64,000 nucleotides of DNA, from contig CAIIXF020000010.1 of NCBI GenBank assembly GCA_903813345.2, forward strand, positions 22,953,181 to 23,017,180, written 5' to 3'. The stretch comes from Owenia fusiformis (lineage: Eukaryota > Annelida > Polychaeta > Sabellida > Oweniidae). The position numbers and the translations under genes are program-made. The notes beneath the pieces are model-generated. The model was not told the DNA's origin. It did no database searches and saw only the letters and a list, made by a program, of their open reading frames with translations. Positions 15,785 through 45,388 of the stretch are shown here, piece by piece. Position 1 is the stretch's first letter. The number at the start of each line of letters is the position of its first letter.

Positions 15785-18700
15785 TTACAACCATGGCATC
15801 CAAACTGGAGGGTCGTACTTTGTAGGGTCACAATCTGGATCGGGACATGGGTATGGCTCTCGTCTGGTCTTAGGTTGGAGTGCTTTCAACCTATCCAACA
15901 TTTCCCGAACCTATAAAATCAAAAGTAAGCTTAATAATTTCATCTTTCATTTGATATATTGTATTCATAACAAGTTTCCAAGCATTACCATTGTAGACTT
16001 TCAAGGTTTTAAGATGATATGTGAATTAAGATGAATGTTTGTAATCTTGATGTGTAAAATTATAAGGAAAGAAGTCCTAGAGGGTGCTACGCCTTAAACA
16101 AAGAAGTCAAAAGAAACTCCATTAAGCAATCTTTTTTGGGAGAGACATCCGAGTAAAGATCGACTGATTAGGGTCAGTGCATCAACCGACTAACAAATTG
16201 TTTTGTTTAGCACTGACATCGTAATGAGAGTTACCTTATCTGGCATGGAAGCACTCAGGTCTTTCTTCTCCAAAGGATCGTTAGCAATGTTGTAAAGATA
16301 TACATTCTTGTCCGGGATCATAGTATGATTTGTTGTCACAAACTTAGGAAATTCTGGAGGAGCTTGCCAACCATCAAATCCTCCATTCCCCTCGAACTCT
16401 ATAATGTACTGTCAAAACTGTATCAAAAGTTCTAAACCGGACCTATTCAAAGACCCGACATTTGACTCGCTCTATCCAAGCCAAAGACTCAAAAGTAGGA
16501 CTTAATTTTTATCATGAATTCTATTAAAATACTTGAACGTACTTCCTGTAAATATCTTGTAATCTCCCATTCTCAAAACTGCCCTGATTGTTGTATCAAA
16601 TGTCACGTTAACAGGATACATAGGTACACCCTTCCTTGGAATTGTTGGGTTCAGGGAATGGAGAATTTCCCTTCGTGGACTTTGCGAACATCGGCTAAAA
16701 TTCAAATACAAATGTAACCGCAACGATGGAATTATTTTGTAATGGATATTTAAGATTTTGTTGCATGTATTAGTAACATGCTCTATTTTGATTAAATAAG
16801 AGAGACGTTGTTCAATTCTTAATCTACATCAAGAAAAAACTAATCCATCCATTAAACATTACACCTACTTGATAGAATCCCATATATCATGTGAATCGTA
16901 TCCTGATGCTCCAATCTTTCCTCCAGCCAGACGCAAGAATGTTGCATACCAATCTGAGACATGGTACAGTTGTTTGTTTATCTTACAGTCGTCATCGCAA
17001 CCTGTAAATATAATATACTAATAGTTTTTCAAATTATAATTCCTTTGTTCTGAAATGGACCACATTCATGAAAAAGATAGCATACAATGCAAGGCAAATA
17101 AAACCTATAAATCATAAAACCAAGCCACAAGAATTCTTAACATATGTATATGTACACGATCATTAAGCAATATCAATACATTATGCCATTTGAAGAATTT
17201 AATCTCAAATGAATACTGATACACTGAGAATATCACACCATTACTTACAACTTTTCTGAAGTAAAGGACTTGCAACAAAGCCTATTCCTCTAATTGCACC
17301 TTCAAAGTAAGTGAATTTTCCTCCCCTCAAAGGCCAGTTGTTGGTGTGAAGTTTGTTTCCACCTTTATCTAAAAGTATCGAAAGTAATAGCTACATACAA
17401 TCGTGTTATTATAAAGTGTCAGTCATATGATGATATGAATTAGGATGGCTAAAAGTTGCCGAATTGCAAGGCTCCTACACTTTTAGGCTTCATTTTAATG
17501 AATCGTGTTAAATTTTGGCGATAAGTTAGTGAAAACACATTAAATGAAATTGGCGATTGACTATAATCATGCATTGCAATAAAAGCGTTCAGTGTTTGTA
17601 GTTGGGTGTTGTTAAAATCTCAGTCTTGAGCAGCGTCTTGCTATTCAATGTTGTGTTTTCTCATTTGAATTTTACAGGTAGGTCTACCTGTGGTAAAGAC
17701 AAGAACTGTATTATCCCACATCCCTTCTTCTTTCAGCGTCTGTACGATTTTTGCTACAGCAACATCCAAAGCATAAACCATGGCTGAAAATTTTAGGACC
17801 AATTTTAGATGATATTGAGATTATTAGTTAGTTAAATCCAGATCTTACACATGTTATCAATAATTATAGAATACATTTAAATTAAAGATTCTCGCAATCT
17901 TTATCCAATCAGCGTTTGCAAAGTGTATCGGCTCACGTATAAAAGGCGAATCCAACTCAAATCCATGCAGGGGTGTATGAGGTACTCGAATAGGAAAGAG
18001 CTCCTGAAATCTGAATTTATATGCACATGGTCAATGTTTACACATGTTTGGAGTTATTGAAGAAAATGTGATATGGGTGTGGTTCCGAATTTGAAGTCAT
18101 TGCTGGAAAATATTTTAATACATGAAATTATATCTATAAATACAGCACTAAAAATAACAGTACACATGAAATACATGTATGATTGTGTTCAGAAATGTTT
18201 GAAACCCTTACGGAAAATTCTGTCTGTTTTTGTCACCATTGCCCTTTCTTCCCGCATTCTAGTGCTGTTTGAATGAATATATTAATTAATGTATTTCTTA
18301 CTAAAATATATCACATTTTTTATAAACCACAAACATTTAGATCATAAAAAAATTATTCAATACTTGAGTGAGCACGATATGCAAGGGTTACTAAGTTGAC
18401 ACAGTAAATGACCACTGATATTGTGTTAGTCCATGCACACAGCGTATTCTGCTAAGGCCATAAGAAGTACATTCTCTGTTTTGCGTCCCCTTGCTTGCAC
18501 GATTTTGAGTAAATCAGAAAAAAACAAACACATCCAAATAGCAATTACAAGGGTTTGAAAGTACCATCGCATTTCATTCAATCAGAATCGGACGAAATGG
18601 CAGATCATTTGATGTGTGTCAAAATTGACAGTGTTATTGATTACTTTAGCATACATTGTGTATTTTCTTATTTTGTACCCTTGAATAATAGCTATGCTTA

Positions 18701-24700: not shown

Positions 24701-27700
24701 CAGTGCTCATTCCGTTTTTATGGGGTTGATTTACCATAAAAATAGTCAAATCCTCTGTTCGTTGGTAAACATTGCTCTCTAGAGTAGCCCATGTGCCATT
24801 TGCCAAGATAGTATGTAGAATAGCCGGCATCGCGGAGCCTCGTCGGAAGGTTTTTCTCTGTCTCACTATAGGGTATACAATGGTTGGCGCAGGGGTAAAT
24901 AGCTCCCATGGCACCTGTATTCGGCTACAATTATCGGTATAGTTTAGTCATTGTAATCAATGTCATGATTAATTTCCCTTAAAATTGAAAACCGATATAT
25001 TGACCTTGATCTGAAAGAACATCGACCTATATATTTGATCTTTTACTAAAAAGATGTTTAGGTTCATTTTACTATACTTGTATTCGCGAATTACATGAAA
25101 AACATTTTTAGGTCCATTTTACTATGCTTGTATTCGCGAATGCAACAATCACTTTCGGCTACCGGTGTAACAGATTTAAGTGTACCCCGGTGGTCAGTGT
25201 CCGGCGGACCCCGATCCCTAGGGTTGGCTGTCCATTGGAGGACATTGAAAACCAGGTTTTATTTCCTATATTAACAAGGGTAAAATGGGGAGACAGTTTT
25301 AACTGGGGAGACTCTCAGATCTGTCACACGGGTTAATCTACTAATTTAAACGCATTGAAATATGAATGGAATAGTGACAGGTACTAGTCATTTTTAAATG
25401 AGTTGCTCATAAAATAGTAGGTTAATCCGGCAACCGACAGCCGAAAGTTGCATTCGCAACTACAAGCTCAATTACACTACTGGGGTTATTTGAAGCCCAA
25501 AATGACAAATAGGTCAAAAGCTGATATAATCATGGTTCTGTATTTTGGAAAATAGCTACACTAAAATAACAAAGTATGAGTCAATTGTTACTTAAAGTGT
25601 AGTTTTCTAATAATGAATCCTTGTGAGAGATGCACAACAATAGGGAGTTTAAGCTTGCATATAAAATCGAAACGCCAACCTATACGTATGACCAATCGCC
25701 CATACAAATGCATCGCTTTATTTTCCGTTCACGTTTAGGTTGTGAAAAACAATACAAGCTTAAACTCCCTATTATTAAACACAAAACAAACTTGAAGAAT
25801 AAACATAGGTCTTACAAAATGTCTCCCGGTCATAAGACTGGCTCTAAAGGCAGTAGAGACGGTGTCAACATAGTATTTGTCGAGCTTAACCCCACTATCA
25901 GCGAGTGAGTCGAGGAATGGAGTATAGAACTTCTCATTGTTGTATCCTATGTCATTGTGCCCCAGGGTGTCGGCCACGATAAGCACTATGTTAGGTTTCT
26001 TCTTACCTAGAAATGAAGATTGAGATGTCCCCATATGGCTTCAATCAGAGCGATGAATACACTTCGTACCTATTACAATGTCATATATAATATCTCCCAA
26101 AATTCTATTCATCAATGGCTGGTGGCACAATCAGACAATCAGATCTTGCGAGTAACCTTTCTAAAAATGGTTTCAATTTAGATTATTTTGGACTTATCTC
26201 TTTTCTTGCCATGTCTATTTTCTAAAACTAAATTGTCATTTTCAGTCTTCATTTCAAGAAAACCAATGATTTTTACTTTTATGTGTTCGTTAACAGTTTT
26301 GTCACCTGCTGTTCCTCTAATTCTATAACTTTAATGTCAGCAAATATTTCAATTTAGTTACCACAACATTTCTCGATTGGTTCTGCTCCTTCTTTCCCTG
26401 CTTCGTAAATGGTCCTCAACTCAGCACAAGCCTTGCTTATCTTTCCCTCATTTCTAAGTTATCAATAAAATCTGTATATATACAGGGTGGTCCAGAAGTA
26501 TAATTAAATATATTTCTATTTTAATTCTACTGAAACAATCTGGAAACTTGGTATCTATGTTCCTAAAAAATTACTGAGTAAATCAATACCGCAAGAAAAA
26601 TGATTTAACTATTTGATTGGTCGAACATATCTTTGCCCACTGTAACATCACGCAGGACATAATATTTGTAATAGAAATTCTTTTAAAAAGATAATAGCAC
26701 GGACCTGCAGACGTGTTAAAAAGTCAGTAAACTCAACATTTTGAGTGTAAACGGTCAAAGTCAAAATCTAGGTCATTTTCGTAATTTTCGCAATTACCAC
26801 ACTATTGTTCAAATTTTACTTTAATAAATGAATAGAACGAATACATTTCTTTCCCATTTGCTTATCAATATCATGTCAAACTATGTTTTTTAGATGTAAA
26901 GTCTGAATCTGGGGTCTTGAATTTCACGAATCTAGATAATAAGGTAACATTTGGTTTTGCACAATCACTGTATACATATCCCACGACATATCCCAGAGGA
27001 CTCTTTCGCAATGCTCCCATAACAACTAAAATCTGGATATACATCAAGTATCTACCCATCTTTGATCGACAAAGAAGTACTACCCCAGCGCTCCAATGCT
27101 TGCACAGATGGATGTCACTGATGTAGTCACCAAAAGTAAGCCGCTGATCACATTAATTCGTGTTTTAAAGGTCACTATGTAAATGGGTTATTAGAGAATT
27201 TAAGATTAGCGTAAATAACCCATTTACCTATACCTATACGTATTTTACGATTGGGTTTACGATACGTAATTACCTATAAATGGCCGAAGATAGGTAATTC
27301 GAAAACCGGTATGTTTTTATCCAACAAATTATGTCATTTCTTGATCAAATATCATTCATTAAACTTTAAAATAATAACAACAAACATTTCTCATTCGATC
27401 TGTATAGAAATTAAGTGGTCGAACTCATTCATTGATCCGATAAACGATGCCATGTGATGATTGTTGAATTTACACATTCTTCATCAGTTTTGCTTATTGT
27501 AAATGCATGAAATCAGACATTTTCTCGTGGTTTTAATTGTTTAACTTTACTATTTGGTCACTCTCATCGTTGGATCATGCTAGAAAACATTTTGCCTTAA
27601 GTCACTGCCCCATTAGCGGGCCCACAAGCAGCACCCCCTCCCAACTACAGTAGCTACACCACACCTCTCTGAAGTATATAACAGTTCTTGGAGGTGGCAT

Positions 27701-30652
27701 ATGCATATGGTATATTCTCATTTTGCCTTAAGTCACTGCCCCATTAGCGGGCCCACAAGCAGCACCCCCTCCCAACTACAGTAGCTACACCACACCTCTC
27801 TGAAGTATATAACAGTTCTTGTAGGTGGCATATGCCATATAAGCCATCGCATGGTTTTCATTCTATAATTAGGATGTTAATTTTATCATAAATTGTAGCA
27901 TACGGTTTCGTAGCTTTCGTAGGTTTTTTACGTAATCTTAAACTCATTTTGCAATACGCATTACCTACGTATACGTATCCGTAACAAACTTACGGATGGG
28001 ATAGGTACACGTACATTTTTACGCTAATCTTAACCTCCCTATTTACGCTTAACCTCCATAGTATATATCAAAATTCACATTATAGCAGGCTTTCGCAGGA
28101 AGTAAACACTGACTAGTCCCATAAGGCGTGATACAACAGCGTACAACAATTACTCAGATGCGAGTAGGTAGTTACCAGTTTCGCCACCAGGTGGCTGAGT
28201 CGGGGGAAATAACATGGCAGGGTATTACAAAATTCCCTTAAACTTGAATATTCATCAGTTTTAGTGGTTCACTTTTCATATTACCCTTTTGTATCTGATA
28301 GTTATACAAATTAAAATATGCCCAGTAAAAGAAAATATTATCTGCCCAACACAAGAAAAGATATTTCACCTTTTGTGATTTTACAACATGGGCTCTATGG
28401 GGAATCCCCCCGACCTAGAAGTCCCATTTTCCAAGAAAATTAAATTTTCAAAGTTGATAAACTCTTTTCAAAACCACATTTCTAGATGCAATTCTACATG
28501 TAGATTCCAAATATGACATCAGTTTGACTGAATTTTGAATTTTTGATGACGTAAATCAAGATTATTTCTACTCGCATCTAGTCTATTATACCTACCCACA
28601 CATTAGGTTTGATATACAACATCAACGTACATGTACACACCATCCTCGTGATATACACGAACTAGTTAATACATTCCCATTGGGCATTTTCCTTGATATA
28701 CACGAATTAGTTAATACATTCCCATTAGGCATTTTCCTTGATATACACGAACTAGTTAATACCTTCCCATTAGGCATTTTAGGCGTGATACAACAGCGTG
28801 TACAAGTACCTATCCACCAGGCTTGATATTAACGTACATACCATCTTTTATTGTACGGACTAGTTACGGCCAGGGTGCATGTTTGGAATTTTGCTGCTCA
28901 AACAGGAATCACTCCTTCCCCGCATTGTCTACATCTTCAAGTTTTGCAGAGTGCACTTATTATGCATAGAAAAGACTGGTGAGAAGATTTGTTTTGTAAA
29001 ATGTATAAAAAACAAGGATATTCAGTGAAAAAAAATTCTGATTTTTTTACTGAATTTTCTAAACATTTTATTAAAACATTCTTCTCTACATTCTTTTCTA
29101 GGTACATTAGTACACTCGTTGTGCAAAAGTGAGAGATGTAGACATTGTGGGGAAGGAGTTATTCAAATTTGACCCTATTGAGGGTTGCAGCAAAATTCCG
29201 AACATGCACCATGACCTCAATACCTACCAATTAGGCGTGATGCAACAGCATTTTCAAATACATATCAACCTGGCTTGATATACAACGTACATACCATCCT
29301 TGATATACTACCATGACTGGTTACTGATACCTAGTACCTACCCCATTATAGGCGTGATACAACAGCGCGTACAAGTACATACCCATCTAGCTTGATATAC
29401 AACATGTACCTACCCAGACTTGAGCGCATTCTTTAGAGTGCGTTCCTTCTTTAAAGCATCCTGTCAGGTAACAATCAATCATTTATATGTACGCCCAAAT
29501 ACTATAAACTTTTAGTTTTCGGTAAGAGGCACTGTCTGTTCGCAGGGTCAATTTTAGTACCACTCGGCTCTTATGTTAAAAATCATCTGGTGTCAGTATT
29601 TTGGGGTTGAAAACCCCAAAGTTGCTGATTGTGAATGATGTCGATAGCATTTATACAGGGTAGGCCAAAAAACAATATCCAAGATTAAGGATCAATATAA
29701 TATGATATAACTTTAAACCATGCCATGTATTGTATATCATTTTAAAGATAAATCATTTCCTGACAATATGACACCATCTGATTGAAAAACTGTTGTTTTC
29801 TTGTGGAGTTAGAGGCTAAAATTTACACCAGGGCATCATTAGCGACCATAAAATTTTTCACTGCGGATTTCCAAATTTTGGAAAATGGAGGGAAATTTGA
29901 ACTCTGGCACCTTCAAAAGAGGTACATTTATACGTATAGTGCAAAATTCAGCAATAATACTTACATATTTTTAATTAATTATCAATTAAATAAAATTATG
30001 ATGATTCAGTCAAGCATATTGCGTGCAGCTGTGACTGCAATATGGAGGGATCATATGAATCATTCATCTTTAAACTTGGGTATTGTTTTTTGGCCCACCC
30101 TGTATATCCATATATAGAAAAAATCTACAATAAGAAATACCGAACTTGACCGATCTTTTAACAACACAAAGGTGACTGTTATTTTATCTTTTTAACTATA
30201 CATTCACATCATCAGATCAAACATTTCGAGACTGTAAACACTATGATGAAGCCAAAATTGACTATGGTGGGTGTAGTGTCTGGCTGTTGAAAACAGCAGC
30301 GATCATTTTTAATGGTTTTGAATTTTTCGTCTTTAAAAGGAAGACCACACCTAAGTCTAGCCAGAGTACAGGTATAGTGGCGGCTTTAGGTGACATACCG
30401 GGTGACATAATAGGTGCATTATATATATATAATTGTGTTTTATTTTTGATGAACTACATGCGAAAGAAACAGACAAATGGTACAAATGGTACTTACTTTT
30501 TGTTTATTCAAAATCTCTTTGACCATTTCCTTATATGCTTCACCGTCAGCACTGTCCAATTTCTGACAGTATTCAACCAGTGTTCCTAAGTCACTTGAGG
30601 CGTACGCTGACAACGTCGCTAATAGCAGACACCAAACTACACACTGCGCCAT
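15785..30652 (-). CDS. secreted arylsulfatase B-like pseudosulfatase 1 (Ser in place of the formylglycine Cys)
   Basis: Thirteen exons keep phase throughout (about 607 residues): 30652-30497, 26446-26362, 26006-25816, 24924-24735, 21604-21452, 21311-21187, 21054-20922, 17783-17688, 17368-17249, 17001-16869, 16694-16543, 16398-16235, 15910-15785. A signal peptide ([18 protein letters not shown]) and a short helical region precede the sulfatase fold, which starts [14 protein letters not shown]. The order of blocks follows arylsulfatase [48 protein letters not shown]. The CxPSR site, where Cys becomes formylglycine, reads STAFR with Ser131. The second metal Asp is Thr94, and the TDN motif reads TDK. 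Lys and His of GKWH, the later His and the WPLRG Lys remain. Eukaryotic FGE modifies Cys only, so hydrolysis is not expected. Exon 2 (28 residues) has a weak acceptor and is the least certain. Confidence 0.85.
17784..20921 (-). other. intron 7 of pseudosulfatase 1
   Basis: This 3.1-kb intron contains the element at 18454-18881. I see no other coding signal. The rest is AT-rich unique-looking sequence. Confidence 0.5.
18454..18881. mobile_element. inverted-repeat element (MITE) in intron 7 of pseudosulfatase 1
   Basis: The ends are AGGCCATAAGAAGTA and its reverse complement TACTTCTTATGGCCT. Similarity continues inward to a GTTTTGCGTC motif in both arms. The flanks suggest a TA target duplication. 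No coding potential is seen. Confidence 0.65.
22757..24580. mobile_element. 1.8-kb inverted-repeat element with internal hairpin
   Basis: The ends read TTGTCCAGCTTGGGGGAGCA on the left and, inverted, TGCTCCCAAAGATGGACAAA on the right. Inside, 23101-23188 is an 88-bp hairpin carrying another copy of the same end motif in both orientations. CpG-bearing motifs such as GTAACCGTCC and its variants recur several times between 23600 and 24410. A minus-strand acidic/basic open fragment around 23700-23900 may be a remnant of its protein. It lies in intron 4 of pseudosulfatase 1. Confidence 0.55.
25055..25143. repeat. 53-bp tandem duplication
   Basis: The stretch TTCATTTTACTATACTTGTA...TTCGCGAAT occurs twice, with starts 53 bp apart. 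Just downstream, CGAATGCAAC / GTTGCATTCG and CTTTCGGCT / AGCCGAAAG pair as an inverted repeat up to about 25458, suggesting a roughly 320-bp foldback element. Confidence 0.55.
25639..25772. mobile_element. 134-bp MITE with about 18-bp inverted ends
   Basis: It starts AATAGGGAGTTTAAGCTTG and ends with the exact inverse CAAGCTTAAACTCCCTATT. It sits just downstream of the sulfatase exon encoding the STAFR site (minus strand), within intron 3. No coding content. Confidence 0.7.
26484..26500. repeat. single transposon terminus (CAGGGTGGTCC)
   Basis: ATACAGGGTGGTCCAGAAG resembles Tc1/mariner-type ends with a TA flank. A reverse-oriented relative (GGACCACCCTGTA) lies at 22643-22655. I could not pair either with its other end, so both look like solitary remnants. 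Confidence 0.35.
27168..28060. repeat. complex foldback region with 131-bp tandem duplication
   Basis: TTTAAGATTAGCGTAAAT near 27200 is mirrored by TTTACGCTAATCTTAA near 28016. TACGTAT-rich segments face each other inside. The core (27588-27838) is a direct duplication with a 131-bp period, beginning CATTTTGCCTTAAGTCACTG in each copy. It looks like a foldback element with an internal tandem duplication, within intron 1 of pseudosulfatase 1. Confidence 0.55.
28115..29420. repeat. satellite-like repeat block
   Basis: The motif GGCGTGATACAACAGCG recurs near 28125, 28782, 29233 and 29350, each time close to copies of CTTGATATACAACGTACATA. A 45-bp unit starting TGATATACACGAACTAGTTA occurs three times at 28649-28783. 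Between the motifs lies a separate palindrome (28869-29217). Confidence 0.65.
28869..29217. mobile_element. 349-bp palindromic element
   Basis: The left arm contains GGTGCATGTTTGGAATTTTG and CTCCTTCCCCGCATTGTCTA. The right arm carries both in inverted order with few changes (CAAAATTCCGAACATGCACC; TAGACATTGTGGGGAAGGAG). The loop is A/T-rich. No coding content. Confidence 0.65.
29656..30102. mobile_element. 447-bp Tc1/mariner-type MITE
   Basis: The ends CAGGGTAGGCCAAAAAACAA and TTGTTTTTTGGCCCACCCTG are inverted copies, flanked by TATA on both sides, which fits TA target duplication. The interior has no intact transposase. Confidence 0.75.
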
Positions 30653-31142
30653 TTTGATCTGATTAAAAAGATTTTCAACTTAATGAGCCGTAAATACATG
30701 AATATCATTATTTACATATCTTTACTTTATGTCTGTTATATTATATTCAGATATTAAAATCACGCGAACGCATCAGTTTTAACCATGCATCTACCTGTAA
30801 TAATTTAGAAATATAGAATGCATTAATAATTTGAATGGGTAATTTTATATGACCCTTAAGTATTTCGTCTGATCCTTTCACAGCTCTAACTCTAATCCTA
30901 AAATATCCTAAAAATTGAAAATTCATTTATATTCATGCATACATACGTCCTTTTCCTATTTCATTTTGTAAACGATATTAATCTTTTCAGCAAGTAAATC
31001 ACAGACTCTGTGCCAAGATTTCAAAGCAATATAACAAAGTCTCCATATAAACAATATATAATAACCTCATTCTCTTTAAAATATTTTTTGAATATCAATT
31101 GAATGAATTATTTGCATGATTTTTGCAAAGTCAATGACTTAC

Positions 31143-31192
31143 CTTTTCAGGTTGGGTTCTCTTTCAGATCTAACGGTAATCAATGTGCATAA
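31143..31192 (-). promoter_or_regulatory. probable 5' UTR exon and TATA promoter of pseudosulfatase 1
   Basis: On the minus strand a donor (CTGAAAAG|GTAAGT) ends at 31143. The next acceptor (tttttaatcag) lies a few bases before the ATG at 30652, so a non-coding first exon is likely. A TATATATA box lies upstream at about 31205-31220, which would place the start near 31185. The exact start site is inferred. Confidence 0.5.
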
Positions 31193-32329: not shown

Positions 32330-32631
32330 ACATATGATTCCCACATACTTTTTGCAGTTTCTTTATTTTGGATTTGAGACAGTTTTGTTTTTATTTGCCT
32401 AAAATACTGGTTGGACGAGTTTTCAACATCTTTAACAAATGAAGTTGTATCCGCCAAATCTGGAGGGCTGCTCATGAGGATTATAATATCCTCAGTTGTA
32501 CGTTTGATGGCCCGAGATTTTTCACAATCACAGTCATCTCCATTGGCCAAAGAAATCAAGGCAATCGCAGAAATAATCCCCATTTGTAACTTCACTAAAT
32601 AAATATCATTTAAGTTAAAATAAAATATCAC
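32330..32631 (-). pseudogene. orphan inverted copy of the pseudosulfatase 2 first exon
   Basis: MGIISAIALISLANG followed by DDCDC and RTTEDIIILMSSPPDLADTT repeats exon 1 of the plus-strand gene almost exactly; about 30 residues are identical. After the VENSS segment a 4-nt indel shifts the frame relative to the other copy. A GTATGT at the old splice position leaves the wrong phase for a known acceptor. Homology extends upstream, so the segment is part of an inverted duplication with about 1.1 kb between arms. It could be an alternative first exon of a neighbouring gene, but I find no compatible second exon. Confidence 0.65.
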
Positions 32632-33728
32632 ATCATAATAAATGTCGATTAATGTTAAACGTAACTAAATCGATAACGTTGTGTGTATATTCTTTAAACA
32701 TGCACATTGATATTTATTTTACATAATGAATGTTATAATTTAGTTTCTTATTCATGTGTTCTTAATTGTAAACTCAAGTCATGTTGGGGAGACAACCGTA
32801 TTTACGAAGTGTGGTGGCTTTATTAATACTTATTGGATTTATAGAACCAAGTGAAAAGGAAAAGTAACAAAACAAAACAATCTAGTAAGAATCTGATGTG
32901 ATATGGGATTGATGAACATTGATAACCATTTATCATGCTGAAGGCATGCCTTGAATTCCTTATTGCGATTTGATTAAAGCTGTATTTGCTGTATATGATG
33001 CAAAATTGTGAAAACGATTTAATTCCCCATAATTTGACATACCATTATGGTATTACGTCAACGTTCAGAAAATGCCAGTTTAATGCATGTTTCGCGCTTT
33101 TACAACTGAAGTTCTTTCTGGAATATTTAGAATATGACATCGTTTTGTGAGAAATAAATGTTTCTTTTAAGTGATACATCATACGAATTTTAACAAAAAA
33201 TAGTATTACTTTTATATCTAAAAACGGAATACCTATATGTAAAACACTTGTCAGAGATTGCATGGATATTACCCTGCGCGCAGAGACTAGTTATAAACTA
33301 AGACAAAGCTCTCTTTTTAGAGGTAAATTCATCATGTAGTATTTGGTAAATCATGTACTATAGTACACCATAAAACTGGACAGGTCTTCAATATGACTCG
33401 TTAAATGTTTGTTAATTGATTTGTTTTATCTTTCTTTTCTAGCATTACACTACTAAAACTAACAATCATTATTGATTAGACGTGTATCTAAATTATATTT
33501 ATTGCTTCATGAATACAAATGACATTCCAATAGTAATCAGAATGAATGAAACAGTTAGAAATGGGAAATAACATGTTTTAAAACATTGAAATATTCGTAA
33601 AACAGTAAGTAATAAAATATTCATTATATAATATAAATACCGATGTTATGGTTTAAAGAATAGACTTTATCGATTTAGTTATGTTTAATATTCATCAATC
33701 GACATTTTGTATGATGTGACCATAGCTT

Positions 33729-36700
33729 ATGATATTTTATTTAGTGAAGTTACAAGTTGGGATTATTTCTGCAATTGTGGTGATTTCTATGGTCAATGGA
33801 GATGACTGTGATTGTGCAAAATATGGGGCCATCAAACGTACTACTGAGGATATTATAATCCTCATGAGCAGCCCTCCAGATTTGGCGGATACAACTTCAT
33901 TTGTTAAAGATGTTGAAAACTCGTCCAGTATCTTAGACAAATACAAAAGAGACTGTCTCAAATCCAAAATAAAGAAACTGCAAAAGGTATGTTTTAAACA
34001 TTTACGGTCCCTGTTATTAGCATACACTTCAAAAGTTCAAAATGTACATTTGTATAGGCATATAGTGTAAAAGCATCAGGTAAAACAAGACGGGGGCTCA
34101 GATACGATCCAATGCTGTATAACAATGAAAAATGTTGTGATAAAAATGAAACAAAATCTAAAAGTCAAACCTAATATTAAAATTCATGCATTTATACTAC
34201 GATTTTCAATGTTTTGACGACAGAAAGTCAAAGTGGCAGTTTCTGTAGTGAATGACTGGGCCTCGGCTGGAGAGCCTACAAAACAACTTAAGAGAAAAAT
34301 GAAGTCCAGTTTGAAGAAGGTGTTGCGGTTAGCAAACAGCTTGTTAAAAGGGGTAGATGATGGTGATTCACATAATAACATATTTTATGTCATATCGGTT
34401 TGTTTTTCATCTCTTTAGCCTAAATGCCTAGATCTGATTCTCTCTTTAAAACGGGAAGAAATATTGATGAAAGAAAGTATACATATACAGTAAAACCTGT
34501 CTAATCCGAACACCGTTGGGATCGGATAAAAGCGTTCAGATTAGAAGGTGTTCACATTTCGAGGTTTTTGCATCAGCAATAATCCGGATTCTGAAGAAAT
34601 GTGAACACATTCTCGGTAAATATTTATAGTTCTTTTGACCACATAGCTTTATGGCATTCCAGAAATTTGAAAATTTGATTCAAATGAATCTAATCATGCT
34701 GGAAAGCCCCATTATGAATGAGACCATTCAAGATTATTTCCCAAAGTTTTGATATCATGACAAAATTTGAGCAATTTTGTGTAAAACATCAGAAATTTTA
34801 TGAAAAGTGTTCAGATTAGACAGGTGAAGTTCAAATATGACTGTTCACTGTTCAAATTGGGAGGTGTTCACATTTCAAGGTTTTTTAACATGGGAGTTAA
34901 TGGGAGGAAGAAATGGGACCGAAAAAAGTGTTCAGATTGGGAGGTGTTCGGATTAGCCAGGTGTTCAGATATACACGTTCTACTGTACTTTATTTAATGT
35001 TGTATTGTCTAGTTCGTGTCCATATACAGTCATCCCAACCGTCCAAAATTGGAGGAAATGTGTCTGGATTCTACAGATAGTTCATGTAAAGCATGGTTCC
35101 TTGGAGCACTATTAACGACATCGACATTCATAACATAGCTTTTGAAACCCATTTCAGAGTTGTCCACTTGTGATGGGGAGCCAGTTGTACCGACAACACC
35201 AGAGGATACTAGTGAAGTTCTTCCTGGCCAGCCACCCAATATTATAATGGTGATATTTAATAGCCTGGGATACACTGATGTAGGATTTCATAATGAATAC
35301 ATGATGACACCTACACTGGATAGATTGGCAAAGAGTGCTGTACTGCTGGATAATTATTATGTACAACCAAGGTCTTCACATACAAGAGCAAACATCATGA
35401 TTGGCAAGAGCCATGTAAGTAACACTTATAAGGAAAGAATTTGTAAGTGTTTGGGTTAAATATGTGATTTTTTAATTATCGAGACGTTGTTTATCGTTGT
35501 TTCTTTCTTTCTTCATCTTTTTGCATTAAACTATGAACGAGTATTTTACGAGATATTAATTGATCTTGTTTCATAGTTTCACACTGGACAGCAGGGTGAT
35601 ATCAACTTAGCTAAGGCCCACTGCATGCCTTGTGACTGCATGACCGTTGCAGAGAGGCTCAGGGAAGCTAACTATTCTACTCATTTAGTAGGACAGTGGC
35701 ATCTTGGATTTTACACCAAATATTGCTTACCACAGAATAGGGGGTTCGACACATTTTTTGGTAACCCATTCATACTTAAGTAGGCTTACTAGCTAACTAA
35801 ACTATTTTCTTGTCTTATTTTTAACAGTCGTATGTTATCTTACACTTTATCGTATTATACGATTTGTCTTGTTGCATAATTTTACTCCAGGAACATACGG
35901 TGGGAACGACATGGATCACTTTGAGCATATAACATGTCGGTGTAGTAGTAACCAAATACAAGACCGAGAATGTAGGCTAAAGTGGTGTGGTCTAGATCTG
36001 CATAATACAGATGGTTCTCCAGCCTGGGATGCACAGGGAACATACTCTACTACTCTCTTTAAGGACAAGAGTGTGGATATCATCAATACACAACCAAGAA
36101 ATAAAGTAAAGCCATGCTCTCATTTTTAATTTGCAGAAATGTGCATTAGATCAACTAAATTGAGTCGCATGGGACGGGGACAAAACATCATGCACCATTT
36201 TATATGTCAAAGCTTCGATGGAAAACCTTTGCTCAATGCATTGATGTGTAGATTTTTCAAGACCTCATTAAAACATATAAATTATGTTAGGGATCTCTGC
36301 AAAATTTCAATTTCAGCCATTCTTTTTGGTGACATCTTTTACTGCCCCCGCAGGATTTCGCCCCCCAAGTGTTGATGAGTTCGAAAAGATGCAAACCGAA
36401 AAACTTAAAACTACCAGTGGTGCACGTACAGCGTATGGAGGTAAATCAGTAGTGTGTTAAAATACTGTTTTTATGATGTGATGATTTCGCTGTTTCTGTT
36501 GTTGAATAATATAATGCAACTTATGAGAGTACTCTTGGCCTTTTGCTGAAAAGATCTTGGAGTCCAAAATTTGTCGTGGCAAGGACTTTTGGGTACCAAG
36601 CCCGAAACTCAATGAGTTGTACGGTCATTCCACATATAAGGAGACATTTAAGGTTCCAAACTTTTAAAAAATGAACTTCGTTTCATTGCATTCATTTTCA

Positions 36701-39700
36701 GATTTTGATTTTGTTTTATGTATCCTCTATAAAATCCCCAAGTTTTGACATTTTAACTTTTATATATCAAAAGTTACACTATTTTGAAAATAAGAGGTGT
36801 ATAATTATAAAAAGCGTATAGTTTAAGATTCGTTCTCGATACCTCTTTTATTCTATGGAGATTTTAGCTAACTTGATATGCGATGTCTTCCTCTGGTAAT
36901 CTCTATTCTATAGGTCACTAAGAAACAAAACTATAAATTGCATTTGGGAAATCACTAAGCATTTTAATCAAGAAATAACATAAAAGTACGTTGTAATGCA
37001 TTAATGCAGTCGCTTCTCAAAAAAAATGTTTTACAAAACGCAACACTGTCATGTTTTCTCATGATGTTTAACACAACATGTGAGAAGTTATTTTGGGCAT
37101 ACAATGAAACTGTGGGATTTCGCTTTCAAATCATCCTATATTTGTATGTGGCAAAGACATCTAGTAATAATCAGAAATAAGTTAAACTTGTCAGTGCAAA
37201 ACAACGTCGCTTAAAGTAAAAATTGACGCAATTGTTAATCCACCGAATCTTTCTCGTATATATTCAAAGTCTTAAAACACAAGCTCCTGTCCTTTGTATT
37301 GTCACCATAAACCATTTTATATCTTTTAATAGAGATACAAAATTACTTTGAAAATAATAACGTATCTTAATATCATTATCAAAACATTTTAACTCGATCA
37401 ATATCATTTACTTATTTGTTTAGAAGAATATAAACTCGTGATATGACCAACTACAAACAATAACAACTTCTTAAACAACAAAACAACAAAACATAAAATG
37501 CTTCATAGTAGAGGCAAATGAAAGAGAACGTCGCTTAAATCTAAGACATTTCGTTCCTTTCACTACAGTGTGTCTCAAAAAATGTTACACTTGCAAAAAG
37601 TTCAATATCTTTCATGATTTAGACTTTTTCCCCAAAATATACTTATATGCCGAAAGACCAGTCTTTCTCAAATAAATTCACACCATCAGATTCAAAATCC
37701 GTCCATGATTGACTGCACAGGACAGATTTTATAGACTCATGTGAAATCTGATTTGCGTCAATTTCTCAGTGGTTGGATATGTGGTGATCAAATCTTTTTT
37801 GGTGTGGATGCTTGATATGATCAATGATCCAGTTGTTTCTTTTCTGGATAGAAATACAAGATTTCATTGTCAGAGTGTTCAATTTTGTTATGATGGCAAC
37901 AGGATCATACAAAAGCCTGTGGCAGATTGTTTGGTAGAACTCTTTGAAAATCAGAAGATAGCATTGAATTACAAAATGGATTGGCCCCCAGGGTCACCCC
38001 ACTAAACACCCTTTATTTTTTGAAGGGCCTCTGAAAGCGCTTTACATCATCGCAAACTGACCTTATGAACTTCTGCAAAAACAATTGATAGAATCAGTGT
38101 GATATTACAATGCATGTGCGCATGAGCAAGGGTATCTCAGATTTGCTTTGGAGAACATGCATGTTGAGGGGACCTCAACATGTTCATGTTTCTTCATCAT
38201 GTTTATGTGGATAGACCCAATGATCATATGTATGATAGGAAAATTACAGAATGACTCAGGTAAAGGTCAAGCTTCTACTCAGAAGAAAGTTTAATGTTAA
38301 AGAAACTGTTCCTCTTTTGTCATTTGGTCCATCCAATCACTTAGAAGTTGGCGCAAGTCAGGTTTGACTATGGGACACTAAAAGCTGTCCCCAGAAGCCA
38401 ATCAAGGACAGATTTTGAATCTGATGGTGTCAAATTATTTGAGAAAGATTTGTCTTTTGGTATTCTTTTGAGACACACTGTAGATGTGCTCCACTTTTGC
38501 AAGATCAATTGCATGTCACTGGCGGCGATTTTCATCATCTTATTTCAATTGTTTTCCATCTTCTTCTGATACGTTCCTTTTCAAGGTATTTTTGTCCCTC
38601 GATTCTTTTCTTTCTTTCTCTATAATTCTTTGGAATTTCTGCTTTAGTCTTGGCCATATTCTGCAACAAATTGTGAATTCCCGGGTTAGTTACCACTATT
38701 AAGACAGAAATAAAACAAGTATTAAGCGACGTTATCAAAAACAACGTACCTTAATTGATATAAAACTCAAGTCGTATTACTAGATTATTAGGAAGAAATC
38801 CCATTTCCTTTGACTGCAAATAAAGTATGGCGTATCATGAGATCACGGGATGATCTCCTCCACTGAGTTACCAGCATTTATTGCTGAGTTAATCAACTTA
38901 TTTCGTACGTTCCGTAACGTACCTTATTGCAACATACATGAGGAAAACTCATTACATGTTCCAATAAAGCAATATAACAGAGCGAACAAAGGTAATGAGC
39001 ACATTGTATTGAATGTCCGCCTTGTCATATTCAAGAATTTATTTACTAATTCCATCAAGCTTTTACAAAATGTTGGGAAATGTTGTAACGTACCTTAAAA
39101 TCCTTATCTTTTGAATTGAAAAATGACACCTTTATGACCTATAACTTATGTTCTGGATAGAATACAGTTTTGAAACTTTGCATGCATTTTGATAAATCAT
39201 TTTCTGATAAAATTTCACTTTGGGTTAAACATTTAAGTGATTCGTGCATTCTCTAGAAATTAAAATATCTAAAGTGGTATTTTAGAAAAAAACTGGCGAC
39301 ATGGGTTCCGGGCATCTGATTATTAGGTTAGAAAGGATTAAATTACTCGAAACGTTGGTAAAATACAGTATACACCCACAGGTATCTTTTCAAGAAGTTT
39401 GGATGTGTTCTGAAATCTATAACTACTTCAGTTATGCTTATAAAACATCACTATGCACTCTGGCGACATAACGTACCTGAGGAATTTGTCATTAAATTAA
39501 GTTAGAAAATATTCTCACTTACTACCAAACAATTAAAATTTGCTGTTTGGTGGTTATACAAGTGGGTATTGGTCCTAAGTAGATGTTCTTTAAAAAGTTT
39601 CTATATATATCTATTAACGCTTGAGAAAAAACCCTTGGCGACACGAATGTCTGCTTATATGTGGAATGACCGTGTAGATGATTTATACCACCTATGCCGA

Positions 39701-42700
39701 AGTGATCGGGGATATAGTGGCCGAGTTGGGATGGTGGGAATGTTTTTCCAGAAATTGCTTTAAAATCACACCATCTCTATGTTTTCATAGAATAAAAATA
39801 TAAGCCGGTTCTATTTACTTTCCTTTGAATATATACCATAGAGTATAGTGAAGACCCTTTCAAAATAGCCATATTGCAAGGTAATCGGGCTTTTGTTGAC
39901 TGAGATTCAATATTTTCAATACCATATTGTGGCGAACGACTCGCGCTTCGATCCAAATAATTTCAGTAAAAAATTATTTATGACCATGGAATATTTTTCC
40001 ATTCCGAGGCTTTTTTTAGTTATTTTCCCATCTAAATATGCATGTAATTTACAAAATAGTGAATGTATATTGTTGGGGTTTTCTAAGTTATGCCAGGTTT
40101 CAATTCTTACCCAAAGATGGCAGCATAGCTTCACTCATCATAATAGGCAACACTTCATTTCTCATAACCAGACTAGCTGGACTCTGTTATTTTCACGAGC
40201 CTGTATCTCAATACTTAAACATTTCACATCCAACCAAAGGGGGTGGACTCTTGTCATTTTGCAATAACAGTGGTTCATGACTTAGGCAATTTTAATCATT
40301 CATACAGTTGGACTTAAGCATTTTCAGTGACATTTCAGTAAAAACTTAGAATAATTTGGTCATTAAGTTTCATTGGCACTTTGCCAAATTGGTCATTGGC
40401 AGGTTGCCAATTGTGATTTGGCAACATGCCAATAGTAGTACTATATAAGAGGCTTCGAAACCTCACCCTGGGAGTTACGATCCGGAGTTACGATTGGGTC
40501 TTTTACCGTCAGTACAATAGCTCAATAATGTACAGCTTGTAAATAGATAGTATAGTTGGACTTATAATAAAGAAGATATGTTACTCTGAACTCAGAAGTT
40601 TGTCGTATCATATTGGCGTCATCGTTTCGTAGAGACCCAACAATATGCATCAAAATATTATACAATGATGTAAAGACAAGTTGCTTCGAGTAAATTGCAA
40701 TTACAATTGCTAGTTTTTGAAAAAAAATTCCCGTCATATTTTTCATAAATTAGTAAATATAGAACAAAAAATGGGATCCTATGTAATATTTTGATTATTT
40801 ACCTATAGAAACATATAGACTAGCATCTATGAATAGAAGCAAAATAAATCATGAAAATGGTCAATGCTACAACTTCTGGCTCAAATACGCTTATTTTCAA
40901 CACGCGAGATTGCGTTTTCGCTGATCGAGATGCACTAAAAAAAATTCTCAGCCGATACTCAACCAATATCCAAAACTTTTAAACTGTATTATAGCCAGGG
41001 ATATGTTCATGGAGGTTTATTTTGCAAAATTATTATTTATTCAGTATTTTTGGTTCTTTACTGTTTTGTATCCCTTCCCTTCATTTTTTGATATATAATT
41101 TCTTCAAAATTTCGACCAAATGAAATCTCCAGATATAGGAAAGGTATTTACCAATGTTTTTGTTCCAAAAAGGTAGATCCTATCCTATACATCTTTCACA
41201 TTTCTGCATTTATAACCCTTTTCTGGCTGACAAAACAATATATGTTGTTTTGACCTTTTGACCCCATTAGACCTACTTTTTTTAGATTTTAGTACACCTC
41301 TCGAGAGAGTTTTGAATGAGTTTCATCTTTGGAAACGCCAGAGGGGGGGGGGGTCATCTGCCCCCCTGTCCATTAGTGTTATGAAAAATACGTTGTACAC
41401 ATTAGGATTAAATATGTTAAATTATCAACAATTCATTGAGCCATATGCTTAAAATCGTTTACATATTCAAAAGAGGCTAATCCAACGAGTGTTTCTATGA
41501 CATGCTCTTTTGTATGTAGGTATGGTGACAGCCATAGACAGTGCAATACAGGATATAATAGATGCACTAAAAGAAAGGGGTATTCAAAATAACACCGTGG
41601 TTATTATCACAAATGGTGAGTTATGCAAATTAATTTTGATAAGAGATATAGTCACACAAGTATTTTTATTCATGTTAATTTTCTAAAACCTTGCTATGTC
41701 ATTTGACTCGGGCACATTCTTGGCTTCACTATTTTCTTATGTTAGTCTCTGCTATTTTAAACTTTGAATTTTTAACTTTGAACATTTTATGTATGTAATT
41801 TGTTTAGATAGGAGTGGTTCTGATAGAACGAATATTGACAATCTTTCTTTCTCGTGGCCACTTCGGGGATCCAGGCCAAGGTACTGGGAAGGTGGCATAT
41901 GGGGCCTTGGGATCGTCACTGCTCCTTGGATTCCAGGTAGAAAAGGAACATTCCATGAAGGAGTTATTCAAAACGAAATATAAAACCCATTGTACCATCT
42001 GATTTTAACTTATGACCTGGCAACGTCGACATATACGTCACCCTTATGTTGTAAACGACGTTTAAACAATGGCTAATACTTCCTATGTGCCTATGCTAAT
42101 CATATACCATGTTACTTTACCAGTTTTACACAATTTTTACAAATCTAAGACATAAATGCTTTACAGCACAGGTTTCAAACGGTCTCATACATTCTACTGA
42201 TTGGTATCCCACCATACTGTCAATTGCTGGAGTAAATGTTAGCACAGTTAATGTATGTGATATTGATGGCCTTGATGTGTGGGATCATATAAGGTACGTA
42301 ACAAGTCGATATCAGAAATCGCAAGGGGCAATATATTGTAAATACAAATGAAAAGTCGATTATTAATTACGGAGAATCCAAATATTAAAAAACACCAGTA
42401 CTTTATCGATAAATGGCAATTTGATCACTTTTATGAAGAAAAGTATGGGATTGGTGGCATGTCCAATGGATTGCCATTGTCTACTCTAAATTACATTCCT
42501 GAATAGGTTAATTTAAAGTGAGAAATCATTACTTTTTAAAAAAATAACCCCTCTCCCATATATACGTATATATCTTATGTACTATATTATATAAAGTAAA
42601 CAACATCCCATCATGCGCATTGTGCGTATGCGAAATAACGATCGAGAACCTCCTTTTCAACAGGACTGGTGCAGCGAGTCCAAGGACTGAGCTTTTACAT

Positions 42701-45388
42701 AACATGGAACTTACAGGTCCAAGAATACGAGGTGTGGCACAATACAATGGAACGTGGAATACTTCTCTACATGCGATCTACAGGATGGGAGATTACAAAA
42801 TATTCACAGGACAGAATGGTACTATTGTATTCTGTTATCACGGGTAGTATCCGAAACCCCGCTATGATTTAAAGGTCGCGAGCAAGTTCCCGCTGAAATC
42901 ACGAGCATAGTCCTGTTTATTTGTATCACTTTGGAAAATGGACCAAAAGGATGAAAATATTTATTACCCTTCTTTGATATTCAAGCAATACTTTGAAAAC
43001 AGATATATTTGATAAACAATGACATGAAAAATGATTCTTTTTTCACTGACATGGAAGAAAATGGCGTCAACATGCTCGTTTGCATAATTTACTGTTCATA
43101 TCCCACTGAAAAGGCCCCGCTGAAAACAAGATCAGATTTCAAAACTAGGAAAGCTTCATTGTTATTCCATGGAGATATTGACCTTCTTTATATGAACGTA
43201 CATGAACGTGCCAATAACATAACATTGTTTCTATGGAAACATCGCATATATTTCTTCTGCAACTTCAGGCAGTTTGATCCATCTGTCAGCGTCGAGCGTT
43301 CGTCAAACCGTCCGTTCATGGCAGCGTTCATCCTACCGTCCAATCGGTTGTTCGTGCGTTTGTTTGTCGAATCGTTTAATCGGGCGTTCGCATGCGTGCG
43401 TTCGTTTGACCGTCCATTCGTATGATCGTGCGTTCGTTCGACCGTCCGTTCGTTCGTGCGTACATGCTTTTGTCTGACCATTTATTCATACTTGCTTTCG
43501 TCCGACTGTCCGTTCGTTCATGGATGTGTCCGTCCGAACGTCCGTGCGTTCGTCCGGCCGTTTTTGCGCGCGATCGTCTGGCGGTCCGTTTATTTATTCG
43601 TGCGTGCGTCCGTGCGAGGATTCGTTCGTTTTTTGTTCGTAAATGGTTTTTGCGTTCGTTCGTGTGTTCGTTCAGGTTTTTGTTCGTAACTTTTTGCGTT
43701 CGTCCCTGTGTTTGTTCGTCCGCACGTTCATTCTGTGTTCGTTCGTGCCTGCGTTCATGCGGGAGATTTTCAGGGTATAATCAGGATTCACTCAACACGC
43801 AGATGAGACACTTTCTCCTGATTTCAGCGGGACCTCCTCATGTTCTCATGCGGGGCCTCCTCATGTTTTCAGTGGGGCCTTTGCTTTATTGCTCCTGCTA
43901 GAAGTGGGGCCTCAGAACATTTTTATATCATATCACTCTCATTACTTCAACCACAGGACAACGTCGTCCTTCACCTAAAACGAATAGAAATATATAGATT
44001 AAGATTCAAGATTATAATTTCTCTCTTCAATTGTTAAATAAAGAACCACAGAACGACCGCTCTTGATACTTTTTTCCCAATAATTGAGGAAAGTTAAAAG
44101 AAAACGCTTTGTACATCAAACAATTCAAGTAAACAAAAGATAACCCATCACTTCTTTTTATTCCTCGTGATTTCAGCGGGAACCTGCTCGCGACTTTTAA
44201 ATCATAGCGGGTGTTTGGATACTACCCGTGTGTTACGTTATCTTTTAATGATGATTAACAATGTTAAAATGACGCTAAATATTCACACGCCTAACCATCG
44301 ACAACGTGCAGTGACAAAACACACCGTCGTAAACTTTAGATGTACGATGTCATGTATTCCTCAGATTATTTTTTTAAAACCTACATCAAACCTACATCAT
44401 TATCTTTGCTTCAAATCGGATAAATAGTGACACCGTACATCTAAATGTACGACGGTATATTTTGTCAATGTACGTTGTCGATGGTTAGGCGTGATTCAAA
44501 CTCGGAAAACTTTTTACCTCATTGAAGAATTGCATTGCAAGAAAATGCGATCATTTATTATGTGAGCAAGTAATAGGTCGTTTTGAATCGGGCTGGGGTA
44601 GACTCAGTGAAAGGCATTTGACACGTCAAATTAGTAATGAAAAAAAACTCATTTACGATGATACGCTAAATGCTAATTAAAAAATTCCACCGACTGGTCT
44701 TGAATAAAGGGCCCCTTCCTTATCTACTTCACCCCCATATATGAAGAGTGTGAGGGGGGGTTATAGGGGCATATGAATGTTACAGCATATACTCGTACAT
44801 GCTGTATTTCACCTTTATTTAACCTTTAGGACGGAGCGATTGGAAGAAACCACCTGAACTGACAAATAACTCTGTAGTTGAAATTGAAAGTTTAAATGAA
44901 CCAAAGACAAAAAATCTATGGCTGTTCGATATAGCAAATGACCCTTATGAGAGGAATGATATTAGTGCCACAAATGTATCACAAGTCATGCTAATGCTTG
45001 ATCGCTTATTGGTAAGTTGGTTTATTATGTCTATCAAAGGAAATATAACTTAGGGCTATATTTATTCTAAAAACGTTGAACAAACATATAAATCATTTAA
45101 AGTCACAGTAGCACAATTATCCATGATCCATGTTATAAACTTTTCAGAATGAATATGAAAACCATGTAATCACTGTATGAATTGTATGAAGAAAAGAAAT
45201 ATAGAATTGATCAATGTTATCTGATGGTTTGATTTTAGGAGTTATCCAAAGATTACGTGGGACCATCACAGTTCGTGAAAGAGGAAAGTTCTGGATTTGG
45301 TGGAGAAGGTAGAAACATTTGGCAGCCATGGATAAACGAAACATGCTCCGACAGATCTATTAATTTTCATGGTATCAATTGGGAATGA
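33729..45388 (+). CDS. secreted arylsulfatase B-like pseudosulfatase 2 (active site lost)
   Basis: Twelve exons splice in phase into 671 residues: 33729-33986, 34224-34362, 35158-35414, 35577-35760, 35891-36105, 36317-36440, 41520-41615, 41808-41936, 42167-42293, 42664-42818, 44830-45011, 45239-45388. A hydrophobic leader ends at VNG-DDCDC. About 130 residues of predicted helix follow, then a sulfatase fold from PPNIIMVIFNSLG. Arylsulfatase B landmarks remain as scaffold: [62 protein letters not shown]. Nearly every catalytic residue is changed. DD is NS (167-168), the formylglycine Cys is Ser205 (SSHTR), GKWH is GQWH, the QSVH His is lost, TDN is TND and the WPLRG Lys is Arg. AATAAA lies at 45410. 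Intact frames and splice sites suggest a retained non-enzymatic role, perhaps sulfated-glycan binding. Confidence 0.87.
34488..34985. mobile_element. 498-bp pogo/Tigger-like MITE, complete copy
   Basis: The ends CAGTAAAACCTG and CACGTTCTACTG are imperfect inverted repeats with TA on both sides. Internal TGTTCAGATTAG motifs recur in both orientations. A second, interrupted copy lies at 54612-55436. It sits in intron 2 of pseudosulfatase 2. Confidence 0.7.
36621..39673. mobile_element. 3.05-kb inverted-repeat DNA element
   Basis: The ends ACGGTCATTCCACATATAAG and its inverse (39654-39673) pair over about 29 bp. The motifs AACGTACCT and GGCGACA recur several times in the right half. A minus-strand fragment at about 38670-38535 (MAKTKAEIPKNYRERKK) resembles the basic N-terminus of repeat-borne proteins common in invertebrates. 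No clear target duplication was found. Confidence 0.55.
37566..38480. mobile_element. nested Tc1/mariner-like element, 915 bp, degenerate
   Basis: It is flanked by TA on both sides (37564-37565 and 38481-38482). The ends CAGTGTGTCTCAAAA and TTTTGAGACACACTG are inverted repeats, and the similarity runs inward about 150 bp (TCACACCATCAGATTCAAAA and its inverse). The plus-strand fragment 37769-38005 ends in DWPPGSPH, recalling the WPxxSPDLNP block of IS630/Tc1/mariner transposases. The third catalytic Asp position reads His and the frame is broken. Confidence 0.7.
40270..40740 (+). promoter_or_regulatory. LTR-like promoter segment
   Basis: TTGCCAA/TTGGCAA half-sites cluster at 40380-40432, followed by TATATAAG (40442-40449). 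About 120 bp later comes an AATAAAG signal (near 40567), and then ATTGGCGTCATCG, which resembles the primer-site region that follows some retrotransposon LTRs. The order matches an LTR (U3-TATA-R-polyA), but no matching second LTR or coding region was found, so this is tentative. Confidence 0.35.
42839..44230. mobile_element. 1.39-kb inverted-repeat element carrying a GTTC array
   Basis: The ends begin CACGGGTAGTATCC and pair over about 68 bp with the inverse at 44164-44230. The flanks TGTTAT and TGTTAC suggest a 5-6 bp target duplication. Inside are a long degenerate tetranucleotide array and, at about 43815-43880, three short copies of a CTCCTCATGTT unit. It lies in intron 10 of pseudosulfatase 2 and has no intact protein. 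Confidence 0.7.
43285..43762. repeat. degenerate (CGTT/CGTC)n tetranucleotide array
   Basis: About 480 bp of CGTTCGTTCGTGCGTCCGT-type sequence is strikingly CpG-rich against the AT-rich background. The long open frames across it on both strands are by-products of the repeat. Confidence 0.85.
44286..44493. mobile_element. 208-bp MITE with 5-bp target duplication
   Basis: The ends CACGCCTAACCATCGACAAC and GTTGTCGATGGTTAGGCGTG are perfect inverses and continue imperfectly to about 47 bp. ATTCA flanks both sides (44281-44285, 44494-44498). It lies in the same intron as the GTTC element. Confidence 0.8.

Follow-up and report, generated by a model that had tools for sequence, protein, structure and literature searches.

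We analysed a 64,000-nucleotide stretch of the genome of the polychaete Owenia fusiformis (assembly GCA_903813345.2, contig CAIIXF020000010.1, positions 22,953,181 to 23,017,180 of the forward strand; hereafter, the window), in which two complete genes resembling arylsulfatase B (ARSB), here called A and B, are arranged back to back in divergent orientation. They are part of a set of eight or more ARSB-fold genes that lack the formylglycine Cys, the CxPxR motif and two calcium ligands, and that are under purifying selection. A first-pass annotation of the window, made from the letters alone, had stressed the Ser that stands in place of the Cys and an N-terminal helical domain; the size of this dead family and the mosaic context of its members are the stronger finding.

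Gene models and the former formylglycine site

The pair is defined by the following features (window positions; E values after each match).

15785 to 30652, minus strand: gene A, ARSB-like pseudosulfatase; 14 exons, 625 amino acids; Pfam Sulfatase 4.5e-43, 1fsu 9.4e-92
Gene A exons, minus strand (hand model and spliced alignment): 30652-30497, 29460-29414, 26453-26362, 26006-25816, 24924-24735, 21604-21452, 21311-21187, 21054-20922, 17783-17688, 17368-17249, 17001-16869, 16694-16543, 16398-16235, 15910-15785
25843 to 25857, minus strand: former CxPSR motif of gene A, reading S-T-A-F-R (codons TCT-ACT-GCC-TTT-AGA)
33729 to 45388, plus strand: gene B, ARSB-like pseudosulfatase; 12 exons, 671 amino acids; Pfam Sulfatase 6.3e-35, 1fsu 4.3e-88
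Gene B exons, plus strand (hand model and spliced alignment): 33729-33986, 34224-34362, 35158-35414, 35577-35760, 35891-36105, 36317-36440, 41520-41615, 41808-41936, 42167-42293, 42664-42818, 44830-45011, 45239-45388
35373 to 35387, plus strand: former formylglycine motif of gene B, reading S-S-H-T-R (codons TCT-TCA-CAT-ACA-AGA)

The models were joined by hand, and a spliced aligner fed each protein returned identical models in the window. All 26 exons are open, with no internal stops, GT-AG borders occur at 24/24 introns and the phases chain, which bears out the earlier description of two full-length ARSB-like genes with good splice sites. By eye, an AATAAA signal lies downstream of each stop codon (A, 15686-15681; B, 45410-45415). 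Human ARSB (1fsu) was the top PDB match for both proteins, with the entire sulfatase fold aligned, and both match Pfam PF00884, the fold of the formylglycine sulfatases. An Rfam scan gave no match at the gathering thresholds.

The readings STAFR and SSHTR at the CxPSR site were confirmed in the spliced models. Since the Cys-type paralogues of the same genome read CTPTR, each site departs at three residues, and a single sequencing error at the Cys therefore cannot account for the loss. The active site of molluscan ARSB is given as D53, D54, C91 'or Ser', P93, R95, K145, H147, H242, D300 and K318 in one account (PMC5159873), and another names N301 among the calcium-site residues of the human enzyme (PMC12197698). 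When aligned to human ARSB and the Cys-type paralogues, gene A has D at D53, T at D54, S at C91, R at R95, K at K145, H at H147, H at H242, D at D300, K at N301 and K at K318, while gene B has N, S, S, R, Q and H at the first six of these positions, a gap at H242, and D, R and R at D300, N301 and K318, the alignment of B being doubtful near 300. If the active-site residues are split into metal ligands and sulfate-binding residues, the metal ligands D53/D54/D300/N301 read D, T, D, K in A and N, S, D, R in B, and of the substrate-pocket set R95/K145/H147/H242/K318 gene A retains 5/5 and gene B just R95 and H147.

The same alignment covers six further dead genes (R8, R3a, R3b, R4a, R4b and R4c; listed below) and four Cys-type genes (L001, L002, L003 and R6), which retain 10/10 of the catalytic residues examined. 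D54, C91, P93 and N301 are missing in all eight dead members, whereas R95 is retained in 8/8, K145, H147 and D300 each in 7/8, D53 in 6/8, H242 in 3/8 and K318 in 2/8. Position 301 is Lys or Arg in six members, Gln in R4a and His in R4b. Position 91 holds Ser in six members and, in the other two, Pro (R3a) or Ala (R4c); in the order R8, R3a, R3b, R4a, R4b, R4c it is S, P, S, S, S, A. The motif reads STAFR in A, R8, R3b, R4a and R4b, SSHTR in B, PTAFR in R3a and ATGFR in R4c. Since this site varies, there is no conserved Ser nucleophile; the Ser, which the first-pass annotation had taken as the key feature, is incidental, one state of a position that is no longer important, and what the members share is the loss of D54, C91, P93 and N301.

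An FGE-domain gene is present at C3:19185679-19186518 (E 1.8e-79; locations outside the window are given as contig and position), with weaker exon matches on C1; SUMF1 and SUMF2 are not distinguished by these matches. Missing sulfatase maturation in the animal is therefore not the cause of the Cys loss, and ordinary sulfatases can presumably be matured in this animal.

Descent and constraint of the family

Using A and B, we searched the animal's own genome (498.3 Mb, 525 contigs) and modelled six exon-structured loci:

C8:30.23-30.25M: R8, dead paralogue model
C3:31.455M: R3a, dead paralogue model, final exon missing
C3:34.42M: R3b, dead paralogue model, final exon missing
C4:13.69-13.76M: R4a, R4b and R4c, dead paralogue models

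The R8 and R4b models include a 5- and a 7-base 'exon', which are surely aligner artefacts. With A and B, the dead genes make up 8/12 of the modelled ARSB-like genes, a fraction that leaves out a Cys-type fragment at C10:55548 and counts R3a and R3b without their last exon.

A sulfatase tree was built from these own-genome paralogues and human ARSB. In the maximum-likelihood tree of 13 sequences, the eight dead members fell on one side and human ARSB, R6 and L001-L003 on the other (support 99.9/100), and the split kept this support when catalytic and gappy columns were removed (399/727 columns kept). Grouping B with R6 and human ARSB or with L001-L003 was rejected by approximately unbiased (AU) tests on the full alignment (P = 0.00029 and 0.00103) as well as on the reduced one (P = 0.0026 and 0.0034). 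A separate loss in B from a Cys-type ARSB is thus rejected by these tests, with long-branch attraction not fully excluded.

Six intron positions are identical in A, B and R6, and a seventh (phase 1, near alignment column 500) agrees among the three within alignment slack. A phase-1 intron at column 209 is present in A and the six relatives, whereas it is absent from B and R6. Given the tree and this missing intron, B branches deepest among the dead lineages. With 38.3% identity in the domain, A and B form an old pair and not a recent duplicate.

To assess constraint, we estimated omega (dN/dS) under codon models and compared it with omega = 1 by twice the log-likelihood difference (2dL). Pairwise, omega was 0.134 for R4a-R4b (dS 1.06, 2dL 234) and 0.178 for R3a-R3b (dS 0.92, 2dL 148); these, the two closest dead pairs, have values as low as that of the Cys-type pair L002-L003 (0.150; dS 0.73, 2dL 184). 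Synonymous sites were saturated in 4/4 tested pairs containing A or B. On a twelve-taxon tree (405 codon columns, filled in at least 11/12 taxa and in both A and B), neutrality was rejected for branch A (2dL 25.6), for branch B (26.9) and for the clade of the six relatives (omega 0.135, 2dL 837). The branch values of 0.031 for A and 0.071 for B are unreliable because dS is saturated. Omega is higher in the six-member clade than elsewhere in the tree (0.135 vs. 0.068; 2dL 23.3 over one ratio), which could reflect slightly weaker constraint or saturation elsewhere. Sequencing error and neutral decay are rejected on the open spliced models, the low omega and the rejected neutrality. The dead copies are not decaying, and the fold has been kept by purifying selection after loss of the catalytic residues, as expected of a pseudoenzyme.

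Three further loci deserve mention. At the R6 locus (L014 and L033, C6:18.976-18.983M), inner exons are duplicated near 18982.0 and 18980.6 kb, and the locus may hold two tandem genes or alternative exons; R6 as used here is the best chain among the duplicated exons, and spliced alignment also yielded another chain. At C8:29632695, plus strand (L019, 666-887), a sulfatase exon with non-Cys PSSTSSR and ADN for ADD is followed by frames that also match sulfatases, one of them with hydrophobic stretches; this looks like a further dead sulfatase of a different subfamily. An iduronate-sulfatase-like frame at C6:33601234, plus strand (L040, 281-1309), reads non-Cys SDVSISS where its relatives have CGPSRAS.

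Modules and segments ahead of the sulfatase domain

Exons for extracellular modules lie on the same strand upstream of the dead domain in 5/6 relatives. Pfam analysis of the joined models of these five detected Trypsin (1.2e-18), three EGF and Sulfatase in R8; Trypsin (4e-19), one EGF and Sulfatase in R3b; eight EGF stretches in R4a (nine by eye); eight EGF in R4b; and Sushi (6.8e-9) in R4c. Sulfatase was detected in every first exon of the five, falling below the Pfam cut-off on the short piece in R4a and R4b. R3a was left out of this analysis; upstream of it we found a coiled-coil-like exon (by eye) and two short W..W..C-type matches in frames. Since a single uninterrupted exon in R8 holds three EGF modules and the start of the sulfatase, the fusion is shown at the DNA level in that gene. 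Phase 1 is the classic phase of exon shuffling, and phase-1 joins of trypsin-like, TSP1-like, EGF and sulfatase parts are feasible in R8, R3b and R4a; the chain in R4a requires a GC donor at one join, and the EGF-sulfatase join of R8 requires none. The TSP1-like stretches of these three rest on a W..W..C-type motif and mutual likeness, and no TSP1 match was obtained from Pfam in their models at E up to 0.1. At the level of gene models, five members thus have the dead domain after EGF modules (one, three, or eight to nine) or sushi, and three of the five have trypsin-like exons further upstream, in the manner of a putative exon-shuffled mosaic protein.

The trypsin-like exons lie at C8:30.25M (R8), C3:34.41M (R3b) and C4:13.68M (R4a). 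TAxHC and D-x-AL are found in R8 and R3b and GxSGGP in all three, so that the H57, D102 and S195 motifs are present in the first two. The last motif reads GFSGGP in each case, i.e., D194 has become Phe, and an IVGG start was not seen in R8 or R3b; normal zymogen activation is therefore unlikely. The domain may still be active; besides the pseudosulfatase, these proteins may thus contain another enzyme domain that is dead or unconventional. The GFSGGP exon of R4a resembles its counterparts in R8 and R3b (E 1.2e-26 and 7.6e-17) and was the only exon of the trypsin-like part found within 13.4 kb upstream of R4a; no trypsin-like motif was found within 11.6 kb upstream of R4b. A trypsin upstream of R4c was rejected as a module and taken as a separate gene, the sushi exon there starting with Met and a hydrophobic stretch. 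The R3b piece had factor VII as its top PDB match (5.9e-10, first half of the piece only), and hepatocyte growth factor (HGF) and coagulation factors were among the 60 PDB matches listed for it. HGF is a mosaic protein with a serine-protease fold, and R8 and R3b are like such proteins in having a trypsin-like domain within an EGF-type mosaic; we know of no HGF-type mosaic member that carries a sulfatase domain.

Genes A and B have Lys-rich segments ahead of the domain, of 102 and 158 residues respectively, encoded in part by the first two of the features below.

26362 to 30652, minus strand: exons 1-3 of gene A; signal-like N-terminus (by eye), about 80 residues Lys-rich and probably helical, no Pfam match above cut-off
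33729 to 34362, plus strand: exons 1-2 of gene B; signal-like N-terminus (by eye), Lys-rich, exon 1 weakly predicted helical (pLDDT 51)
32343 to 32737, minus strand: inverted partial copy of B exon 1 with the sequence upstream of it; 84% identical to 33613-33992, a 4-base insertion shifting the frame, donor-like GTATGT retained

No Pfam match above cut-off was obtained for either N-terminus. An AlphaFold model of B exon 1 consists of helices at a low mean pLDDT of 51, which gives weak support to the helical half of the first-pass proposal that both proteins carry an N-terminal helical domain. The two segments align at best with 34% identity over 38 lysine-rich residues (composition correction off), and hhalign gave a probability of 1.5%, so that clear homology between them is not supported. 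At E up to 0.001, residues 1-53 of A had no other match listed in the genome (70/106 candidates scored), and residues 1-88 of B matched just the adjoining inverted partial copy (66/73 candidates scored). Nor is such a segment a trait of the family, as five of the six relatives have EGF or sushi modules at this place and the sixth a coiled-coil-like exon; the N-terminus looks gene-specific rather than a family hallmark.

The donor-like site of the inverted copy leaves phase 1, which would fit exon 4 of A, and it is conceivable that the copy serves as an alternative first exon of A. Outside the coding model of B, a repeat-rich stretch of CGTTCGT type with several open frames (by eye) occupies about 43300-43760 of the window, in intron 10.

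Possible roles of the dead sulfatase fold

The first-pass annotation had proposed an established non-catalytic family, and the eight dead members on one side of the tree, the low dN/dS and the mostly retained introns agree with that proposal. We consider it probable that this is a secreted family in which the sulfatase fold is used as an extracellular binding module. An ARSB gene would have been duplicated, the common ancestor of A, B and their relatives would have lost the hydrolase activity in a single event, and the domain, still folded, would have stayed in use as a secreted module for recognition. Its old pocket and surface may hold, without turnover, either a protein partner or a sulfated glycan, the kind of ligand bound before the loss, and the N-terminal modules may serve for oligomerisation or spacing or offer another site for binding. 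A and B would be the simplest members, in which a signal peptide and a Lys-rich segment precede the domain. The further suggestion of the first-pass annotation, that such proteins are secreted binders of sulfated glycans, would fit A by the residues it retains and fits most other members poorly. More speculatively, and in our view unlikely, the domain might be a metal-free sulfate reader, in which Lys or Arg at 301 replaces the calcium electrostatically, position 54 is always neutral and a sulfate ester is held uncut. Added by shuffling to EGF, sushi and altered trypsin-like parts, it would have given lineage-specific humoral or matrix proteins that read sulfated glycans.

Reuse of an enzyme fold as an extracellular binding domain has precedents. 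Examples are chitinase-like lectins (YKL-40 type), whose fold and ligand are unrelated to the dead sulfatases, and further extracellular pseudoenzymes that carry adhesion modules. Closest in its proposed working is heparanase-2 (HPSE2), described as a catalytically dead relative of a glycosaminoglycan-degrading enzyme that was retained after duplication (PMC12406646). The likeness would be binding without turnover, which for the dead family is a proposal; HPSE2 has a glycoside hydrolase fold and not one of the alkaline-phosphatase superfamily, does not belong to the same family, and differs from the multi-gene family with EGF, sushi and trypsin-like modules described here. ARSB itself (N-acetylgalactosamine-4-sulfatase, SulfAtlas S1_2) is alike over the whole fold (1fsu) and in the six intron positions identical in A, B and R6, and differs from the dead family in having the Cys, CxPxR, D54 and N301 and in the EGF or sushi modules ahead of the domain in 5/8 dead members. 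In titles and the opening of abstracts, we found no paper on an inactive animal sulfatase family or on a sulfatase-EGF-trypsin architecture.

Several observations weigh against a secreted binding family, or against the single loss on which it is built. The tree has no root of its own (we place it on the Cys side), B sits on a long branch, and with dS saturated a recent relaxation in A or in B by itself is conceivable. We infer transcription and splicing of A, B and the relatives from sequence, and the mosaic proteins are not full-length, as signal exons and the middle trypsin exon were not found. With regard to sulfate, H242 and K318 are retained in just 3/8 and 2/8 members, the isoelectric point of the dead domains ranges from 5.5 to 9.2 and is thus not consistently basic, and A and B show no excess of heparin-type motifs over shuffled sequence (smallest P 0.119). 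Furthermore, dead members retain 3-7/10 catalytic residues, compared with 78-89/141 of the other sites invariant in the Cys group. Since retention is similar, the catalytic residues that remain are no special sign of sulfate binding; by the same comparison, the catalytic set is not clearly lost faster than the rest, with 3/10 positions gone in every member.

Part of this evidence leads to a lesser but serious possibility, that the domain was kept to bind a ligand that has nothing to do with sulfate, for instance a partner protein, a gamete ligand or a structural matrix. The absence of H242 and K318 from most members, the wide range of isoelectric points and the heparin-type motifs, not enriched in A and B, would all be accommodated, whereas A retains R95, K145, H147, H242 and K318 and the fold is otherwise conserved to the C-terminus. 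We regard it as doubtful that the dead copies act on the living enzyme system in the way heparanase-2 acts on heparanase-1, by inhibiting or buffering active ARSB or FGE or by competing for substrate. The same genome does encode Cys-type ARSB paralogues and a gene with an FGE domain; however, the Cys and Pro of the FGE motif are missing in 8/8 members, and the EGF, sushi or trypsin-like context of five points to an extracellular structural or recognition role and not to a lysosomal partner.

That A and B are recent pseudogenes, decaying duplicates left open by chance, is very unlikely: saturated dS on both branches makes recent relaxation possible, and between the two genes there is a frameshifted copy of B exon 1 in inverted orientation, but the 26 open exons, the GT-AG splice sites and AATAAA signals, the rejection of neutrality on both branches and the intron positions, most of them common to the family, all speak for maintained genes. 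Least credible is changed catalysis, in which the protein would still be an enzyme, either with a Ser nucleophile, as in alkaline phosphatase, or with formylglycine formed from the Ser, as happens in certain bacteria. The Ser in 6/8 members and the mostly retained R95, K145 and H147 favour it, and STAFR in five members fits the S-x-A-x-R form of some bacterial maturases; of the wider bacterial Ser-type motif, S-x-P/A-x-R, SSHTR, PTAFR and ATGFR are not instances. A [CS]-x-P-x-R motif in which either Cys or Ser is converted to formylglycine has also been described (PMC5066984). Nevertheless, a catalytic or formylglycine Ser is rejected, since the site holds Pro in R3a and Ala in R4c, both from constrained pairs of close similarity; the calcium ligands D54 and N301, whose loss also sets the family apart from the bacterial Ser-type sulfatases, are gone in 8/8, and the radical-SAM sulfatase maturase (TIGR03942) had no match in the genome, which does not prove its absence.

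Secreted, non-catalytic binding modules therefore remain our preferred interpretation of the family. Sulfatases are treated as enzymes defined by formylglycine, and a constrained family without it, with at least eight genes and some of them joined to adhesion-type modules, would add a class of dead sulfatases to extracellular biology, next to heparanase-2. The copy number of invertebrate 'arylsulfatase B' genes has been read as an adaptation to diverse algal food (PMC5159873). Considering that eight of the twelve ARSB-like genes modelled here lack the catalytic Cys, invertebrate genes annotated as 'arylsulfatase B' may include non-enzymes.

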